Source: Candidatus Fermentibacterota bacterium
Lineage (GTDB): Bacteria > JAFGKV01
Length of the DNA: 5,587 nt
Direction: 5' to 3'
NCBI GenBank assembly: GCA_030620115.1
Contig: JAUXFG010000211.1
Span: 1 to 5,587, forward strand
Shown here: positions 1-5,587 of the stretch, piece after piece
How positions within the stretch are numbered: the first letter of the stretch is position 1
Layout of the letters: the number at the start of each line of letters is the position of its first letter
Position numbers and translations under genes: made by a program
The notes under the pieces: generated by a model
Seen by the model: only the letters and a program-made list of their open reading frames with translations
Databases searched by the model: none
What the model was told of the DNA's origin: nothing

Positions 1-760
1 GATGGGGCATATTGCCGTCCCTGGCAAGCCGGAGCGCGTCAACCAACCTGATGAACGAGGAGCGGATCCGGACATGATCCCGAAGGGCCAGTATCTGGAC
101 CAGTCCCATACCCACAAGGATGACAATGACCAAGAAGCCACCCCTCAGGAAAAACAGAGCAAACAGATATGCCCCCAATGGGGTGCTCCACGAAAGAAGA
201 GCGCCCCAGCGAAACAGAGCCCGCCATGCCTCTAATGGACTCCTGCCATCCCGAAGCCACAACCCGAAAGAGAGAATGGTATTACTCGTAAGAAAATACG
301 CGGCGTGTGCTACAAGCAGTCTCAGGAACACCTGTCGGCTGGGCCCCACTGCAATTACACCGATTCCGCGCTGTGCTCCCCACAGGATAGTACCAGCAGC
401 GAGTAGACACAGAGCATGCTTTGCGGAATTGAGAAGTGCCCTCTGGACATCGATCAATGCCCTACCGGTAAGTGATGACAGGGTGGCCGCAAATCCCACA
501 AGCCACCCACTAAGCAATGCAACATCGCTTCCGTAAAGAACCAGGATTGTGAGAAGAGGAAGGGGACTGATGTTCAGGGATCCTACTCCAGCCATGCCCC
601 TGACGGGGAGAACCGTAGCCAGAACAGCTAACCCTATCCACAGAATTGCTGAGGGCGACCGACCCAGCTCCCCCAGCGCGTTGGCAGCCCGAGGAATCAC
701 AATCGCTGCTGTGCCAATACCAAGTAAAAGGGCAAAGATTAGGAATTTCCTATTACGCAC
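1..760 (-). CDS. Membrane sensor protein, N-terminal part, probable HD-type signalling protein (runs off left edge)
   Basis: An open minus-strand frame runs without a stop from an in-frame TAG at 807-805 to the left edge. I start it at GTG 760-758, because AGGGAG at 774-769 lies 8 bases upstream and the product opens MRNRKFLIFALLLGIG, a typical positive-then-hydrophobic membrane start. ATG 796-794 would add 12 residues but has no ribosome site. About 253 residues are visible, with some seven or eight hydrophobic segments (roughly residues 5-22, 38-52, 64-76, 79-98, 112-127, 145-165, 185-204, 207-225). The stretch around residues 60-127 (SLNISPLPLL..., RALLNSAKHALCLLAAG) recalls MASE9-type membrane sensors. 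After the last segment, FIRLVDALRLARDGNMPH resembles the opening helix of HD/HD-GYP phosphodiesterase domains (family pattern: LARAI..KD..T.GHS). The catalytic HD pair would lie beyond the edge, so the enzymatic assignment is inference. A GGDEF output or a plain membrane protein remains possible. Confidence 0.72.
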   Translation of the reverse strand, partial: MRNRKFLIFALLLGIGTAAIVIPRAANALGELGRSPSAILWIGLAVLATVLPVRGMAGVGSLNISPLPLLTILVLYGSDVALLSGWLVGFAATLSSLTGRALIDVQRALLNSAKHALCLLAAGTILWGAQRGIGVIAVGPSRQVFLRLLVAHAAYFLTSNTILSFGLWLRDGRSPLEAWRALFRWGALLSWSTPLGAYLFALFFLRGGFLVIVILVGMGLVQILALRDHVRIRSSFIRLVDALRLARDGNMPH

Positions 761-910
761 GCACACCACTCCCTGGAAATGCTGATACAAACCCATTCGC
801 AGCTATCGCAAGGTGCGTGCCAAAACCACAGCCAGGACTTATCTTATTAGCCAGCAAATCAATGGGTTAGCGGATTGGGCGTTTTGGCGTGTGGGGAAGG
901 TCGAGTCGGT

Positions 911-930
911 CCATTGCAAAATGCAAATGG
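911..930. promoter_or_regulatory. Operator-like inverted repeat, copy 1 (TTGCA-AAA-TGCAA)
   Basis: TTGCA at 914-918 and TGCAA at 922-926 are perfect 5-base arms around a 3-base centre. Allowing one bulged A, the arms extend to CCATTGCA...TGCAAATGG. On the minus strand the site begins four bases after a TTGACA hexamer (936-931), so it would lie in a -35/-10 spacer if that hexamer is used. No good -10 follows at 16-18 bases, so the promoter itself is doubtful. The same arms and spacing recur at 1165-1177 and 1196-1208. The 13-base T-N11-A geometry would suit a LysR-type or another dimeric regulator; which one is not known. Confidence 0.5.
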
Positions 931-933
931 TGT

Positions 934-964
934 CAAATAGCAAAGAGGGCGCTCTCGCACCCTC
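934..964 (-). terminator. Intrinsic terminator ending the small minus-strand unit
   Basis: Read on the minus strand, GAGGGTGC (964-957), loop GAGA (956-953) and GCGCCCTC (952-945) form an 8-bp stem with one G-U pair and a GNRA tetraloop. The stem is followed by the T-rich TTTGCTATTT (944-935). On the plus strand the G-U becomes a C-A mismatch and no T-run follows, which fixes the orientation. It lies 31 bases past the stop of the 20-codon ORF and upstream of the membrane protein gene, so it could end a stand-alone small transcript or act as an attenuator for that gene. The T-tract is interrupted, so efficiency is uncertain. Confidence 0.62.
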
Positions 965-995
965 CATATTGCTTAAAGCACTGGTCTAGATTGGC

Positions 996-1058
996 TTAGA
1001 ACTCTCCATCAAAAAAGCCGAGGTAGCTGATTATCCACCAACCCATCGATAGTAACAT
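996..1058 (-). CDS. Small ORF, 20-residue hydrophobic peptide with strong ribosome site
   Basis: ATG 1058-1056 is preceded by a full AGGAGG (1071-1066) with a 7-base spacer and ends at TAA 998-996. The peptide reads MLLSMGWWIISY then LGFFDGEF: short, aromatic and hydrophobic, with tandem Trp codons, tandem Phe codons and an acidic tail. A near-consensus promoter (1124-1096) lies just upstream and a terminator-like hairpin (964-945) just downstream, so the ORF sits inside a self-contained unit of about 150 bases. I recognise no family. It could be a leader peptide whose translation controls the downstream hairpin (the WW pair is reminiscent of Trp leaders, but the next gene is not a trp gene), a signalling or toxic membrane peptide, or a small RNA with an incidental ORF. 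Reality of the ORF rests on signals, not homology. Confidence 0.5.
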   Translation of the reverse strand: MLLSMGWWIISYLGFFDGEF

Positions 1059-1065
1059 GCCTCAT

Positions 1066-1071
1066 CCTCCT
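1066..1071 (-). promoter_or_regulatory. Ribosome binding site of the small ORF
   Basis: AGGAGG, a perfect Shine-Dalgarno match on the minus strand, ends 7 bases before ATG 1058. It is the strongest such site in the window and the main reason to treat the 20-codon ORF as translated. Confidence 0.55.
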
Positions 1072-1095
1072 GATGTATTTCCGTACGCTGGTAGG

Positions 1096-1124
1096 ATTGT
1101 ATCAACCCTGGTATATCATGTCAA
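1096..1124 (-). promoter_or_regulatory. Sigma70-type promoter, leftward
   Basis: On the minus strand TTGACA (1124-1119) is separated by exactly 17 bases from TACAAT (1101-1096). That is 6/6 and 5/6 matches to the housekeeping consensus at optimal spacing, and the best promoter in the window. Transcription would start near 1089, about 30 bases before the small ORF. If the hairpin at 964-945 is read through, it could also supply the membrane protein gene starting at 760. Confidence 0.72.
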
Positions 1125-1164
1125 GCTCTTTTTTGTCCATATTGACACCCGCTATCGAGAATCA

Positions 1165-1177
1165 TTGCAGTCTGCAA
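1165..1177. promoter_or_regulatory. Operator-like inverted repeat, copy 2 (TTGCA-GTC-TGCAA)
   Basis: Perfect 5-base arms TTGCA (1165-1169) and TGCAA (1173-1177). A plus-strand TTGACA lies at 1142-1147, exactly 17 bases before position 1165, so the repeat occupies the place of a -10 element. A bound protein would therefore block or remodel that promoter. TTGCAG is a poor -10, so the promoter is tentative. The centre lies 31 bases (about three helical turns) from the centre of copy 3, which favours cooperative binding on one face of the helix. Confidence 0.55.
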
Positions 1178-1193
1178 CACCCCGTTCGCGGTA

Positions 1194-1210
1194 GATTGCA
1201 AACTGCAATC
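1194..1210. promoter_or_regulatory. Operator-like inverted repeat, copy 3 (GATTGCA-AAC-TGCAATC)
   Basis: The most symmetrical of the three copies: 7-base perfect arms, GATTGCA (1194-1200) and TGCAATC (1204-1210), around AAC. With copy 2 it lies in the divergent interval, about 220 bases before the transporter start and 70-115 bases upstream of the leftward promoter at 1124-1096, so it could serve either direction. Confidence 0.6.
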
Positions 1211-1323
1211 GGGGACAGGTCAACACGGACTATTGTATTGATTTAACATCAGTTATGGGTATTCGCAATGAGAAACGCGGGTCTTTACCTATCCGGTTCG
1301 CCCGGCTCCTGGCCTTCATTGGT

Positions 1324-1358
1324 GGCTCCTCTCGGGCACCCACGAAGGGGCCTTTTTT
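1324..1358 (+). terminator. Attenuator-like hairpin with T6 in the transporter leader
   Basis: GGCTCCT (1324-1330) pairs with AGGGGCC (1346-1352), 7 bp with one U-G, around a 15-base loop, directly followed by TTTTTT (1353-1358). This fits an intrinsic terminator on the plus strand, 71 bases before the likely transporter start. A second GGCTCCT at 1304-1310 could replace the 5' arm. GAAGGGG occurs both in the 3' arm (1344-1350) and over the ribosome site (1414-1420), so alternative pairings are possible. That suggests a regulated leader; no known riboswitch class was recognised. Confidence 0.45.
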
Positions 1359-1416
1359 CACCGCCCGACCTGGATCTGGCCAAATTGCGTCGTTCCCGGG
1401 AACCAGACCGGCAGAA

Positions 1417-1423
1417 GGGGAGG
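1417..1423 (+). promoter_or_regulatory. Ribosome binding site that decides the transporter start
   Basis: GGGGAGG ends 5 bases before an in-frame TTG (1429) and 17 bases before the first nearby ATG (1441). The spacing supports the TTG. No comparable site precedes the far-upstream ATG at 1255. Confidence 0.5.
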
Positions 1424-1428
1424 ATGAC

Positions 1429-2733
1429 TTGATCCCCGCAATGCGGTATACTCTGTGGAAACAATCAGATACATATAACATTACGGGTGGAGAATTGAAG
1501 TATAGCAGGACATTCCTCCTCGGGGTGACCAACGGAGTCCTGTTCAACCTCGCCGAGGCCCTGATCGGTGGCACAACGGTGCTGCCCATTTTCATAAGCA
1601 CGCTTACGGCGTCCAAGGTCCTGATAGGCCTCTCCGGAACCATGGGAAATGCAGGCTGGCTCATGCCGCAGCTGGTCGTGGCCAATCTGATCCAGCACTT
1701 GAAGCGTAAGAAGCCGATCTACATTTGGGCAGGGGTAGTCCGCATCATCTGCATCTGGGCCATCGCTCTCATGGTTGCTTTTCTGGTGGGATCGCGAGCA
1801 GGCCTGTTTCTTGTCCTGTTTTTCATCCTCTATTCCATCTATACCCTTGCCGCCGGGGTCGCCGGCATCCCTTTCATGGATATCGTGGCTAAGGCCGTCC
1901 CATCCACTAGGCGCGGCACCTTCTTCGGAGCCAGGCTCTTTTTCGGGGGAATCGCAAGTGTGCTGGCCGGGTTGTTCGTCAGGAACGTGTTGGCCACCAG
2001 GTCATTCCCCAACAACTACACCATCTTATTCCTTACTGCATCAGCAGTTATAACAGTGGCGATCATCTCTTTCTGCCTGGCATCTGAGCCCGAGACCATC
2101 TCCCGGGAGACGCGGATGCCTTTCCGGCGATTTCTCCTGAAGGGCCCATTCCTGCTCAAGAACGTGAGGAGCTACAGGTGGATGCTGATTGTGAGGATCA
2201 TGCTGGGTGTCTGGGGCATGGCTCTGCCCTTCTACATCATTTTCGCACGTGAACGGCTGGGATTCGAGGCGAGCTCGGTCGGGATCTTCCTGTCTATCCA
2301 GATGGTCGGCATGGTCCTATCCAATATTCTCTGGGGAGCCCTGAGCAACCGGGTTGGAAACAAGATAGTGATTGTGCTGGTCTCTGCGGTCGCTGTCATC
2401 TCGCCCCTGGTCACTCTCCTCAGCAATGTCTACCCATCGCTCCAGGGAATGCTCGGATTCGGGATCGTGTTTTTCTTCCTTGGCTTCACCCTGAGCGGCA
2501 TCAGGCTCGGATACGCCAACTACATGCTGGATGTCTCACCCGAAGCCGAGAGGCCGACCTATCTGGGTTTCATGAACACATTCATTGCCCCGGTGCTGCT
2601 CCTATCCTCGGTCGGCGGCTTCGTGATCGAAAGAACATCTTACGAGGTTCTCTTCATCACGGTAATAGGGGCCGGCATCCTCGCGCTGGCTTTCTCAGTC
2701 CAGCTTGAGGAACCACGAAGGAGCGGGCCATAA
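1429..2733 (+). CDS. Major facilitator superfamily (MFS) transporter
   Basis: An inner-membrane transporter of 434 residues with about 12 hydrophobic helices in two halves, split by a charged cytoplasmic loop at about 217-250. The opening KYSRTFLLGVTNGVLFNLAEAL, the TLTASKVLIGLSGTMGNAGWLMPQL stretch and the basic QHLKRKKP loop after helix 2 are typical of MFS permeases. The second half has a motif-A-like LWGALSNRVGNK (301-312). Substrate cannot be read from sequence. The frame is open back to ATG 1255, but the extra 58 residues are hydrophilic and un-MFS-like, span a terminator-like hairpin and lack a ribosome site. I therefore start at TTG 1429, with ATG 1441 as the alternative (four residues shorter). 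The gene appears monocistronic and divergent from the membrane sensor gene. Expression may depend on the inverted repeats at 1165-1210 and the leader hairpin at 1324-1358. Confidence 0.88.
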   Translation: MIPAMRYTLWKQSDTYNITGGELKYSRTFLLGVTNGVLFNLAEALIGGTTVLPIFISTLTASKVLIGLSGTMGNAGWLMPQLVVANLIQHLKRKKPIYIWAGVVRIICIWAIALMVAFLVGSRAGLFLVLFFILYSIYTLAAGVAGIPFMDIVAKAVPSTRRGTFFGARLFFGGIASVLAGLFVRNVLATRSFPNNYTILFLTASAVITVAIISFCLASEPETISRETRMPFRRFLLKGPFLLKNVRSYRWMLIVRIMLGVWGMALPFYIIFARERLGFEASSVGIFLSIQMVGMVLSNILWGALSNRVGNKIVIVLVSAVAVISPLVTLLSNVYPSLQGMLGFGIVFFFLGFTLSGIRLGYANYMLDVSPEAERPTYLGFMNTFIAPVLLLSSVGGFVIERTSYEVLFITVIGAGILALAFSVQLEEPRRSGP

Positions 2734-2754
2734 TCTCCACTTCGAGCTGGAGAT
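2733..2754 (+). terminator. Hairpin directly after the transporter stop codon
   Basis: ATCTCCA (2733-2739) and TGGAGAT (2748-2754) form a perfect 7-bp stem with an 8-base loop, starting on the last base of the TAA stop. The position suits a terminator or a 3'-end stabiliser. The T-tract is poor (only CTTTT about 10 bases on), so intrinsic termination is not assured. The structure is symmetrical and could also work on the minus strand. Confidence 0.4.
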
Positions 2755-2820
2755 AACCGTAACTTTTCGGTCACTAGTGTAGCTATACTTGACACCAACG
2801 TATCGTACTGGCACCAATTG

Positions 2821-2866
2821 GGTTACACCAAATCCTCGCCGTCTGCCGCCTCAAAGCGGTTACACC
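2821..2866. repeat. Direct repeat pair GGTTACACC
   Basis: GGTTACACC occurs at 2821-2829 and again at 2858-2866, 37 bases apart start to start, in the gene-free stretch 2734-3133. No symmetry or promoter fits it clearly; it might be a tandem binding site or chance. The rest of this stretch shows no coding frame I believe in. A TTGACA at 2789-2794 has no convincing -10. The only other structure I see is the stem-loop element at 2992-3091. Confidence 0.25.
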
Positions 2867-2991
2867 GGAGCTTACAGGGAGACCGGACTCTCTCGCCCTG
2901 CGGAACGATCTATCCCCTGTGTTAGCAATTGGTTCCGGCCTGAGCACAATTGATTTTGCGCTCTGGCACCGTGCTTGCTCTATGCACAGGC

Positions 2992-3091
2992 GGAGGCTCC
3001 TAGGGGGGCGAACGGGAGCCGCGCGAACCAAGGGCGGCGGCACCACTCGGTGGTGATTGTGTTGGGAAGTGCGGTACGCCGGCTCCCGTTC
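2992..3091 (+). promoter_or_regulatory. Structured leader element upstream of the OB-fold gene
   Basis: GAACGGGAGCCG (3010-3021) and CGGCTCCCGTTC (3080-3091) form a perfect 12-bp stem. Nested inside are CACCAC-TCG-GTGGTG (3041-3055, 6 bp) and a small GCG-GTA-CGC (3071-3079). An upstream GGCTCC (2995-3000) could pair instead with GGAGCC (3015-3020), giving two mutually exclusive folds. The element ends 30 bases before the AAGGAG of the exported OB-fold gene, so it would lie in its 5' leader if transcription starts upstream. It matches no riboswitch or mobile-element class I recognise; a small structured repeat unit is the alternative. Confidence 0.45.
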
Positions 3092-3120
3092 AAGATCAAC
3101 CGTTGTCACGGACAGACCAT

Positions 3121-3126
3121 AAGGAG
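3121..3126 (+). promoter_or_regulatory. Ribosome binding site fixing the OB-fold gene start
   Basis: AAGGAG with a 7-base spacer before ATG 3134. It selects this ATG over the ATG at 2975 (53 codons upstream) and the one at 3191 (20th codon, ribosome site too close). Confidence 0.7.
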
Positions 3127-3133
3127 TTTGATA

Positions 3134-4024
3134 ATGCCGGGATTCAAAGTCTTGACTTCAGATATCACGAGAGATCGGTCCACAAGGGGAATGTCATGGC
3201 TCGGGTTTTCCTTAGCTCTCTTGCTAGTCCTTCTTCCTCTGATTTCCTTCGCTCAGACTCACCTCTGGAAGTACCAAACCTTCCGTGCGTTCGACACTGG
3301 ACATTCTGGCGGCGATCACATCTGCGACCTCAGAAGGGATAGCAATGGACTTGGAAGACCCGACAGGCTCGGCGATTACGTGACCATTATGGGATCTGTA
3401 ATCGCCGAGCCATCTACTTATGAAACCGGAGGCCGGCTCTTCTGGGTGAGACAGGCCGGCTGCGGCATACTGGTTTATGGTGAACCGGAGTCGCTCCGCC
3501 TGGGGGACTTCGTCAGTGTCGAGGGGTGGCTCCGCCTCACTGACGGCAACTGCTTCTTCCCGGAGACGGGACTGGCAACCCTGGGTGACATTGCGATTGA
3601 AAATGCCGGCGTCCGGGTTATGGGCAAGACTGGCTCCCCATTGCCCGGCACCGTCACGGCGCTGGAGCTAAACCGGTTCCCCGAGAGGTACGGGGGAAAC
3701 CTGATACGCATTCCGGGGCTCATGCGGATCGGCCGTCGCACTGACCAGAGCGGTGACTCATTCGTCTGGCTGCACGGGGCCCGGGATTCTGTACTGCTCT
3801 ATATCGATTCGGATACCGGCTGCGCGCTTGAGTCTGACGGCCAGGTTCGCATCACGGTCACGGGGATTCTCATCCGCATGGACCCACCTTCCGCCATAGC
3901 ACATTCACCGTCATGGTGCCTTGCCCCGAGGCGTGCCGCGGATATAGTCGTTCAAGAAAGCGGATCTGCAGTTGCCGCTATCTCATGGGGCGATGTGAAA
4001 AGGGGTTTTCTTGATCAGGACTGA
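3134..4024 (+). CDS. Secreted protein with two OB-like folds
   Basis: 296 residues. An N-terminal export signal has a long basic n-region (1-20), a hydrophobic core at 22-39 and a likely cleavage after A40 (SFA|QT), so the protein acts outside the cytoplasmic membrane. The mature part contains two OB-like units. The first, about 78-150, has LGDYVTIMGSVI, GCGILVYG and LRLGDFVSVEGWL. The second, about 183-273, has YGGNLIRIPGLM, a SFVWLHG strand and VRITVTGIL. The ICDLRRDSNGLGRPDRLGDYV lead-in is of the kind found before OB domains in secreted bacterial proteins, some attached to nucleases (YhcR-like). No nuclease or other catalytic domain is present. Five cysteines (64, 110, 140, 230, 262) could include disulfides. 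The role may be binding of nucleic acid or another ligand, but this is inference. The gene's last 10 bases overlap the end of cdaA on the other strand. Confidence 0.75.
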   Translation: MPGFKVLTSDITRDRSTRGMSWLGFSLALLLVLLPLISFAQTHLWKYQTFRAFDTGHSGGDHICDLRRDSNGLGRPDRLGDYVTIMGSVIAEPSTYETGGRLFWVRQAGCGILVYGEPESLRLGDFVSVEGWLRLTDGNCFFPETGLATLGDIAIENAGVRVMGKTGSPLPGTVTALELNRFPERYGGNLIRIPGLMRIGRRTDQSGDSFVWLHGARDSVLLYIDSDTGCALESDGQVRITVTGILIRMDPPSAIAHSPSWCLAPRRAADIVVQESGSAVAAISWGDVKRGFLDQD

Positions 4025-4773
4025 ACGGGTGGTGCCAGGATCTCCTCGAGCACTTCACGCAGCGTCTCGGGGTCGAGCTTTCTCCGGAGATTGCCTCGCA
4101 CGGCAACTGATATTCCGCCGGTTTCCTCCGAGACGACAACCACGACCGCATCGGTCTCTTCAGTAAGACCCGCCGCCGCACGGTGGCGCATACCGAAATT
4201 GGCCGGCAGCATGGGGTTTTCCGAAAGGGGAAGAATGCAGCCGGCGGCGACGATCTGCTCCCGGACCACTACGCACGCACCATCGTGAAGCGGTGTCTGG
4301 GGTGTGAATATCGTGGTGAGCAGCTCATAGGTTACCTTCGCGTTTATGCGGGTACCCGTCTCAATGTAGTTTCGCAGGCTGGCCTCTCTGGCAATCACGA
4401 TCAGCGCTCCGACTTTCCTGAGCGAGAGTTCGCGGGCGGCTCGGGTTATCTCATCCAGTACCGCCAGGTGTTCAGGCCGTACGAAGTACCTGACGAACCT
4501 GCTCTGGCCCAGCTGCGCCAGCACCCGCCTCAGCTCGGGCTGGAAAATAATGACAAAGGCTACGACCCAGACAGTCTTCAGGCTTGAAATGATCCAGTTG
4601 AGCGCATCGAGCCTGAGCCACTCGGCGATGAAAGAGGCCGCGATGATGATTATCAGCCCAAGGAACATCTGGGCAGCTCTGGTGCCTCTGATCAGTTGGA
4701 ACAGTTTGAAGAAAAGGAAAGTGACGATGATGATATCCAGAATCTCAATCCACCAGCCGCTCAACCACTCCAT
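4015..4773 (-). CDS. cdaA: Diadenylate cyclase CdaA (c-di-AMP synthase)
   Basis: 252 residues, close to the usual 270 of the CdaA/DacA (YbbP) family, which condenses two ATP into cyclic di-AMP at the inner membrane. Three N-terminal membrane helices (about 8-28, 34-53, 58-77) precede the catalytic DAC domain (about 95-240). Both signature motifs are intact: DGA at 164-166 (LHDGACVVV) and RHR at 196-198 (FGMRHRAAAG), followed by the conserved SEETGGIS (215-222). ATG 4773 overlaps the folP stop (TGATG), with GGAAGG 10 bases upstream inside folP, so translation is coupled. In Firmicutes and many Deltaproteobacteria cdaA is followed by cdaR and glmM. Here a convergent gene ends at its 3' end instead, so no CdaR-type partner is encoded locally. 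The product should govern c-di-AMP-dependent functions such as osmolyte or wall homeostasis. Confidence 0.95.
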   Translation of the reverse strand: MEWLSGWWIEILDIIIVTFLFFKLFQLIRGTRAAQMFLGLIIIIAASFIAEWLRLDALNWIISSLKTVWVVAFVIIFQPELRRVLAQLGQSRFVRYFVRPEHLAVLDEITRAARELSLRKVGALIVIAREASLRNYIETGTRINAKVTYELLTTIFTPQTPLHDGACVVVREQIVAAGCILPLSENPMLPANFGMRHRAAAGLTEETDAVVVVVSEETGGISVAVRGNLRRKLDPETLREVLEEILAPPVQS

Positions 4774-5587
4774 CAGTCAGACACCTTCCGTTCCTCGGGC
4801 ATCTCGTACCGCGCGAACACCTCGTACATCTTAAGGGCTCTCGAGACAGCCTTGACATCATGCACCCTCAGGATATTTGCTCCCTTTCTTACTCCGACTA
4901 TACAGCTTGTTATTGTAGCTTCAAGCCTATCTTGAGGATCCAGGCCAAGAGTTTTCCCGATAAACGACTTTCTCGAGGTGCCCAGCAGGATGGGCTTCCC
5001 CAGGTCCTTAAGCTCATCCAGCCGGGCTATAAGCTCAACCGACTGCTCGGCGGTCTTTGAGAATCCAATACCTGGATCGATGATTATGTTTCGGGACAGG
5101 ATCCCGGCCGCTTCTGCGACGGCGACCTGTTTGGCCAGTTCTCGTTTCACGTCACCGGTGACATCGTCATAGTCGGTGAGCGTTCGCATGGTCTCAGGCG
5201 TCCCCCTCATGTGCATGATCACAACCGGCGCACCACTCTCGGCAATTACCTCAGCCATGGCCGGGTCATGCTTAAGGCCGCTCACATCATTGATCATGTG
5301 GCCCCCGGCTTGGAGCATCTCCCGGGCGACATCGGCTTTCCTCGTATCTATGGAGAGCGGGACTTGTGCATCCTCTATCAGCAGCTCGACCACCGGCTTG
5401 ATTCTCTGAATCTCCTCAGCCGAGGTCACGGGCTCTGAGCCGGGCCTGGTTGATTCGCCGCCGATGTCGATTATGTCAGCGCCGTCGGCAACCATCTCCC
5501 GGGCGTGCCGCAGCGCGTTCTCAGTCCCGGCATGTGCTCCCCCGTCCCAGAAGGAATCCGGAGTGACGTTGAGGATACCCATGATGA
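4773..5587 (-). CDS. folP: Dihydropteroate synthase FolP (5' end outside window)
   Basis: Folate-pathway enzyme joining 6-hydroxymethyl-dihydropterin pyrophosphate to p-aminobenzoate to give dihydropteroate; the sulfonamide target; cytoplasmic TIM barrel. All signature segments are seen in order: MGILNVTPDSF with DGG, GADIIDIGGESTRPGSEPV, SIDTRK, INDVSG, VIMHMRGTPETM, IIDPGIGFSKT, GTSRKSFIG and LRVHDV. The usual Ser in DSFSDGG is Trp here (DSFWDGG). ATG 5582 could begin a 269-residue protein, but the frame is open to the edge (Ile codon before it), and the family usually has 10-30 residues before MGILNVTPDSF, so the true start is probably outside. It is the upstream gene of the folP-cdaA pair, ending in a TGATG overlap. 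Confidence 0.95.
   Translation of the reverse strand, partial: IMGILNVTPDSFWDGGAHAGTENALRHAREMVADGADIIDIGGESTRPGSEPVTSAEEIQRIKPVVELLIEDAQVPLSIDTRKADVAREMLQAGGHMINDVSGLKHDPAMAEVIAESGAPVVIMHMRGTPETMRTLTDYDDVTGDVKRELAKQVAVAEAAGILSRNIIIDPGIGFSKTAEQSVELIARLDELKDLGKPILLGTSRKSFIGKTLGLDPQDRLEATITSCIVGVRKGANILRVHDVKAVSRALKMYEVFARYEMPEERKVSD

Follow-up and report, generated by a model that had tools for sequence, protein, structure and literature searches.

The window analysed here, i.e. the whole stretch of 5,587 nt, comes from a lineage with, to our knowledge, no cultured member. Its relevant part carries a short peptide transcription unit and, on the same strand, the 5' part of a membrane signalling gene. 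The features are given below with their state in the closest related contig (L001) and in the loci L109, L110 and L113.

2..760, minus strand: gene of a double TM + HD-GYP membrane protein, 5' part, start GTG 760, running off the window
807..822, minus strand: TGGCACGCACCTTGCG, sigma-54 promoter (-24/-12 type) for the HD-GYP gene; the element recurs in L113, L109 and L110
914..926, minus strand: palindrome TTGCATTTTGCAA, candidate enhancer (UAS) of the HD-GYP gene, placed 104 bp before its sigma-54 promoter
944..965, minus strand: intrinsic terminator hairpin with GNRA loop and T-rich tail; retained with altered sequence in L001, L109 and L110
996..1058, minus strand: 20-codon ORF MLLSMGWWIISYLGFFDGEF from ATG 1058 to the stop at 998-996; 20-codon homologues in three other genomes, silent-site bias
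1066..1071, minus strand: Shine-Dalgarno AGGAGG, 7 bases before ATG 1058; kept in L001
1096..1124, minus strand: sigma-70 promoter TTGACA-N17-TACAAT with extended -10 (TG); hexamers and spacing kept in L001
1165..1177, no strand assigned: further copy of the TTGCA-N3-TGCAA palindrome, upstream of the peptide promoter and lacking a sigma-54 promoter within 150 bp
1196..1208, no strand assigned: one more TTGCA-N3-TGCAA copy upstream of the peptide promoter, likewise lacking a nearby sigma-54 promoter

The first-pass annotation of this DNA had listed the promoter, the AGGAGG with its 7-base spacing, ATG 1058, the 20 codons and the GNRA-capped hairpin, and all of them were found in their places; its start for the neighbouring gene at 760 was likewise correct, the start codon being GTG. 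The peptide promoter matches the consensus in 11 of 12 bases, while six other promoter-like matches in the window reach 9 of 12. The hairpin (965-944) has the loop GAGA and a modest T-rich tail (TTTGCTATTTG), and its pairs form with a predicted probability near 1. With the transcript start set by eye just after the -10 element, the transcript geometry is constant among the homologous units, with a 5' UTR of 35-36 nt, a stop-to-stem distance of 28-33 nt and a total of 160-161 nt. The unit is best read as a gene for a monocistronic RNA of approximately 160 nt, presumably transcribed from a housekeeping promoter.

Among the genome contigs, the best match to the CdaA protein of the window was in Candidatus Eisenbacteria CSMAG_463 (L001), whose DNA is 92% identical to the window over positions 153-5587. 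Its peptide, MLLSMGWWIISYLGFFDGEL, has 19 of 20 residues in common with that of the window, with one silent and one replacement change in the ORF, and the promoter hexamers, their spacing and the AGGAGG are unchanged. Alignment of the hairpins revealed that pairing is preserved in L001, one G-U pair having become A-U and the loop GAAA. Since the unit has been kept while the adjoining positions 250-890, which span the DNA upstream of the HD-GYP gene and the 5' part of that gene, have drifted to approximately 46-74% identity in 50-base blocks, the signals are more than a chance assemblage.

Searching with the protein of the neighbouring membrane gene gave homologues in the genomes G002, G003 and G004. 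Upstream of the HD-GYP gene, G004 (L109) has three 20-codon ORFs, MGLLINRLCLWFHGFRDGNL, MELLPNRLWLFLLGYWDGKI and MELLINWLWFWLLGFWDGIL, and G003 (L110) has two, MVELLINWLWFWLVDFWDGEF (20 codons when counted from the aligned GTG) and MELLINWLWFWLVGFWDGEF. The position corresponding to AGGAGG is occupied by AAGGAGGT in the intact copies of both loci. Copy 1 of L109 is without a clear ribosome site and both older L109 copies have Arg at position 7; judged by their sequences, these older copies look decayed. The window, L001, L109 copy 3 and L110 copy 2 all retain the C-terminal G-F-[FW]-D-G, and they share W7 with L110 copy 1; these five peptides contain no Lys or Arg, and their membrane partition estimates are favourable. 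A similarity as high as that between the window peptide and MELLINWLWFWLVGFWDGEF arose in only 60 of 200,000 shuffles.

Counted from the aligned start, every copy runs to 20 codons and is free of indels, frameshifts and stops. As had been proposed earlier, the ORF was checked for synonymous-biased substitution, and changes in the distant relatives indeed favour silent positions. L109 copy 3 and L110 copy 2 differ at 11 bases, 7 of them third positions (dN 0.13, dS 0.72), and neutral simulation produced as few residue changes, with no stop, in 0.0003 of trials. Other pairs of copies agree in direction, with P from <0.00025 to 0.06, these tests being not independent because the pairs have common ancestry. 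For the informative distant pairs dN/dS was about 0.2, with a third-position bias. The suggestion of a peptide gene is thus strongly supported by the homologues, the constant 20-codon length, the silent-site bias and the conserved promoter and terminator.

Significant profile matches in these genomes were limited to loci upstream of the HD-GYP gene. No significant match was returned by tblastn and profile search with the peptide in G002 and G007-G010, all of the same phylum, the G002 contig ending inside the HD-GYP gene. Profile search of 49 other genomes and two phylum sets (47 and 80) gave none, a weak negative as it had no positive control, and a search of viral contigs and plasmids gave no match. 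Three peptide variants were unmatched at E<=10 in Pfam, NCBIfam and PHROGs, where such short queries have little power; an Rfam scan showed nothing relevant and literature searches revealed no description of the unit. Taken as a whole, sequence comparison gives good support to a real peptide gene, conserved within one little-known bacterial lineage.

The protein encoded by the adjoining gene is approximately 945-951 aa long, contains membrane segments and two HD_5 domains (PF13487), and is predicted to be a cyclic-di-GMP phosphodiesterase. The sigma-54 promoter of this gene and its enhancer site are located downstream of the peptide terminator in four genomes. Across loci, a sigma-54 promoter lies 95-150 bp downstream of 19 of 33 TTGCA-N3-TGCAA sites, as compared with 1.15% of random positions, and the genes that follow these sites encode pilins, PilB-type ATPases, a GspH-like pseudopilin, RR-GGDEF proteins and a sigma-54 activator. 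The HD-GYP gene has the enhancer motif and the -24/-12 promoter in common with pilA and pilB, and would accordingly be placed as a putative member of the type IV pilus regulon. The pil cluster of G004 reads pilB-pilT-pilC-pilS-pilR-[site]-pilA and has a further site before pilB; because pilR adjoins the site before pilA, we infer that a PilR-type activator uses TTGCA-N3-TGCAA as its enhancer. The analysis therewith defines a likely enhancer motif for the PilR-type sigma-54 regulon of this lineage. The palindrome at 1165..1177 may be what is left of a lost upstream unit, or else a distal copy of the enhancer.

Several observations concern other parts of these genomes. Between the prepilin peptidase and GroES genes (L084/L129/L143 and L093/L133/L144), the same enhancer motif and a sigma-54 promoter face a stretch without plausible ORF, which has the common sequence GGGCCTGRGACAGGGTCCTC and probably encodes a PilR/sigma-54-dependent small RNA in two genomes. 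On the plus strand of the window (1255-1500), an MFS gene probably starts at a TTG near 1496, as in L003 and L004, and the longer listed ORF from 1255 is therefore likely over-extended. We considered a link of the peptide to this MFS gene and rejected it, since the peptide units of G003 and G004 lie elsewhere, before the HD-GYP gene, and other genes stand upstream of the MFS gene there. Predicted secreted proteins of L003 (7505-8086), L004 (13583-14176) and L110 (222-992) have a WGxIKxxxR motif in common at the C-terminus, which may serve this lineage for sorting. It should be added that G001 (C268 and C205) contains two diverged forms of the HD-GYP N-terminal part, with 67% and 97% identity to the protein of the window, which suggests allele exchange or two strains in the assembly.

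In the window, G001, G003 and G004, peptide copies are always directly upstream of the same HD-GYP gene while the neighbourhoods differ, a comparison of four genomes only, in which the window and L001 are close kin. The gene, its conservation, its tandem duplication, this fixed linkage and the separate sigma-54 wiring are all evident from the DNA comparisons. As the linkage is fixed while the surroundings change, the peptide and the HD-GYP protein are taken as a functional pair, and the best reading, to which we give somewhat less than even confidence, is that of a membrane-acting peptide modulating the HD-GYP protein. The complete gene would yield a 20-residue acidic, hydrophobic, Trp/Phe-rich peptide, made independently of the HD-GYP gene, the latter being presumably controlled by sigma-54 and a PilR-type activator as part of the pilus regulon. 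Once translated in the cell, the peptide would enter the membrane, from inside the cell or after release, and would contact its partner, the adjoining double HD-GYP protein; by modulating the membrane domains of the latter it might affect c-di-GMP and so link a peptide signal to c-di-GMP and pili.

At approximately 14 residues the hydrophobic core would hardly span a membrane, and the peptide has no export signal. The N-terminal domain of the HD-GYP protein differs by a third between the window and L001 with the peptide nearly unchanged; because the peptide hardly changes where this domain does, tight ligand-receptor co-evolution via the domain is not suggested. A fold search of the domain against the PDB showed weak resemblance to ECF transporter S-components, with none significant (best E 0.26). 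The linkage may also reflect gene regulation and not protein contact. More tentatively, the product of these constitutive, often tandem genes could be a dedicated ligand or membrane subunit of the double HD-GYP receptor-enzyme, a previously unseen peptide-to-c-di-GMP signalling pair inside the pilus regulon. If the pairing is functional, it would let a peptide feed directly into the control of c-di-GMP and pili. Peptides of such length escape gene calling, and this one is duplicated, under selection and attached to one c-di-GMP enzyme gene. A signal or membrane-active peptide, among the options named by the first-pass annotation, is kept as our preferred, tentative direction.

The signal could alternatively be a secreted pheromone of the SHP/ComS-like type: cells would release the last seven or eight residues (LGFFDGEF-like), and the population would sense them through the HD-GYP protein or through a regulator in the cytoplasm that has so far gone unseen. 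The small ORF adjoining a signalling gene, the conserved hydrophobic C-terminus and the similar copies in tandem agree with this; nevertheless, we regard it as unlikely, as the intact copies are without a positively charged N-terminus, no Rgg/RRNPPA-type regulator was evident by eye among the ORFs adjoining the unit, and the SHP/ComS family has been described from Firmicutes (PMC9765709). Lower still we rank a dual-function or regulatory small RNA, in which the approximately 160-nt RNA would be the main product and the peptide secondary. The constancy of RNA length and terminator and the probable small RNA elsewhere in the same regulon are in concordance with such a role, but the silent-site bias, the constant reading frame and the scarcity of conserved sequence between the window and L109/L110 once ORF and signals are set aside are not; of the small-RNA proposal made earlier, the part in which RNA is the sole function is thus disfavoured by the codon pattern, and a dual-function RNA is conceivable.

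That the tandem copies are maintained as a membrane-active toxin or antimicrobial, similar to type I toxins or leaderless bacteriocins, appears improbable. In its favour, the peptide is short, hydrophobic and Trp-rich, and its tandem copies are partly decayed; against this stand a 5' UTR of only 35 nt with a strong ribosome site, a net negative charge without Lys or Arg, the fixed linkage to one signalling gene, and the outcome of a scan of the plus strand over 900-1140 for sigma-70-like promoters only, which found no antisense promoter within the unit. Very improbable is a leader-peptide attenuator, in which translation or stalling in the ORF would set terminator read-through into the HD-GYP gene: promoter, ORF, terminator and gene do follow in order on one strand with the constant stop-to-stem distance, but the reading fails because, past the terminator, a conserved sigma-54 promoter and enhancer serve the HD-GYP gene alone, and because the upstream pairings of the terminator 5' arm differ between the four transcripts, leaving no common antiterminator, the more so as the terminator folds almost invariably in prediction, tandem peptide units fit poorly, and the tandem Trp codons earlier invoked for stalling are not conserved, W7 alone being kept in intact copies.

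Amino-acid leader-peptide attenuators of the trp and tna type consist of a promoter, a short ORF with Trp codons, a terminator and then the gene. The peptide unit has the same order, yet differs in the own promoter of the HD-GYP gene, the antiterminator that is not shared and the unconserved Trp codons. MgrB-like regulators are small membrane proteins acting on sensor enzymes, and the membrane-acting peptide favoured here resembles them as a tiny hydrophobic product linked to a membrane sensor; it is, however, shorter, no sequence relation was seen, and the candidate partner is assigned by gene linkage. With the streptococcal Rgg/SHP and ComR/ComS systems the unit has in common a hydrophobic ORF of approximately 20 residues by a signalling gene and conserved C-terminal residues, whereas no such regulator is evident adjacent to it, the N-terminus is not positively charged, the neighbour is a membrane HD-GYP protein and the phylum is another. 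Likeness to the PilS-PilR/sigma-54 regulon of Pseudomonas and Geobacter includes the pilB-T-C-S-R-A cluster, the sigma-54 promoters before pilA and pilB, and the enhancer motif of this cluster, carried by the HD-GYP gene. In contrast to the PilR elements of P. aeruginosa, TGT-N11-AGA and GTCT (PMC6058289), the motif found here is the palindrome TTGCA-N3-TGCAA, and the peptide gene sits between enhancer copies.
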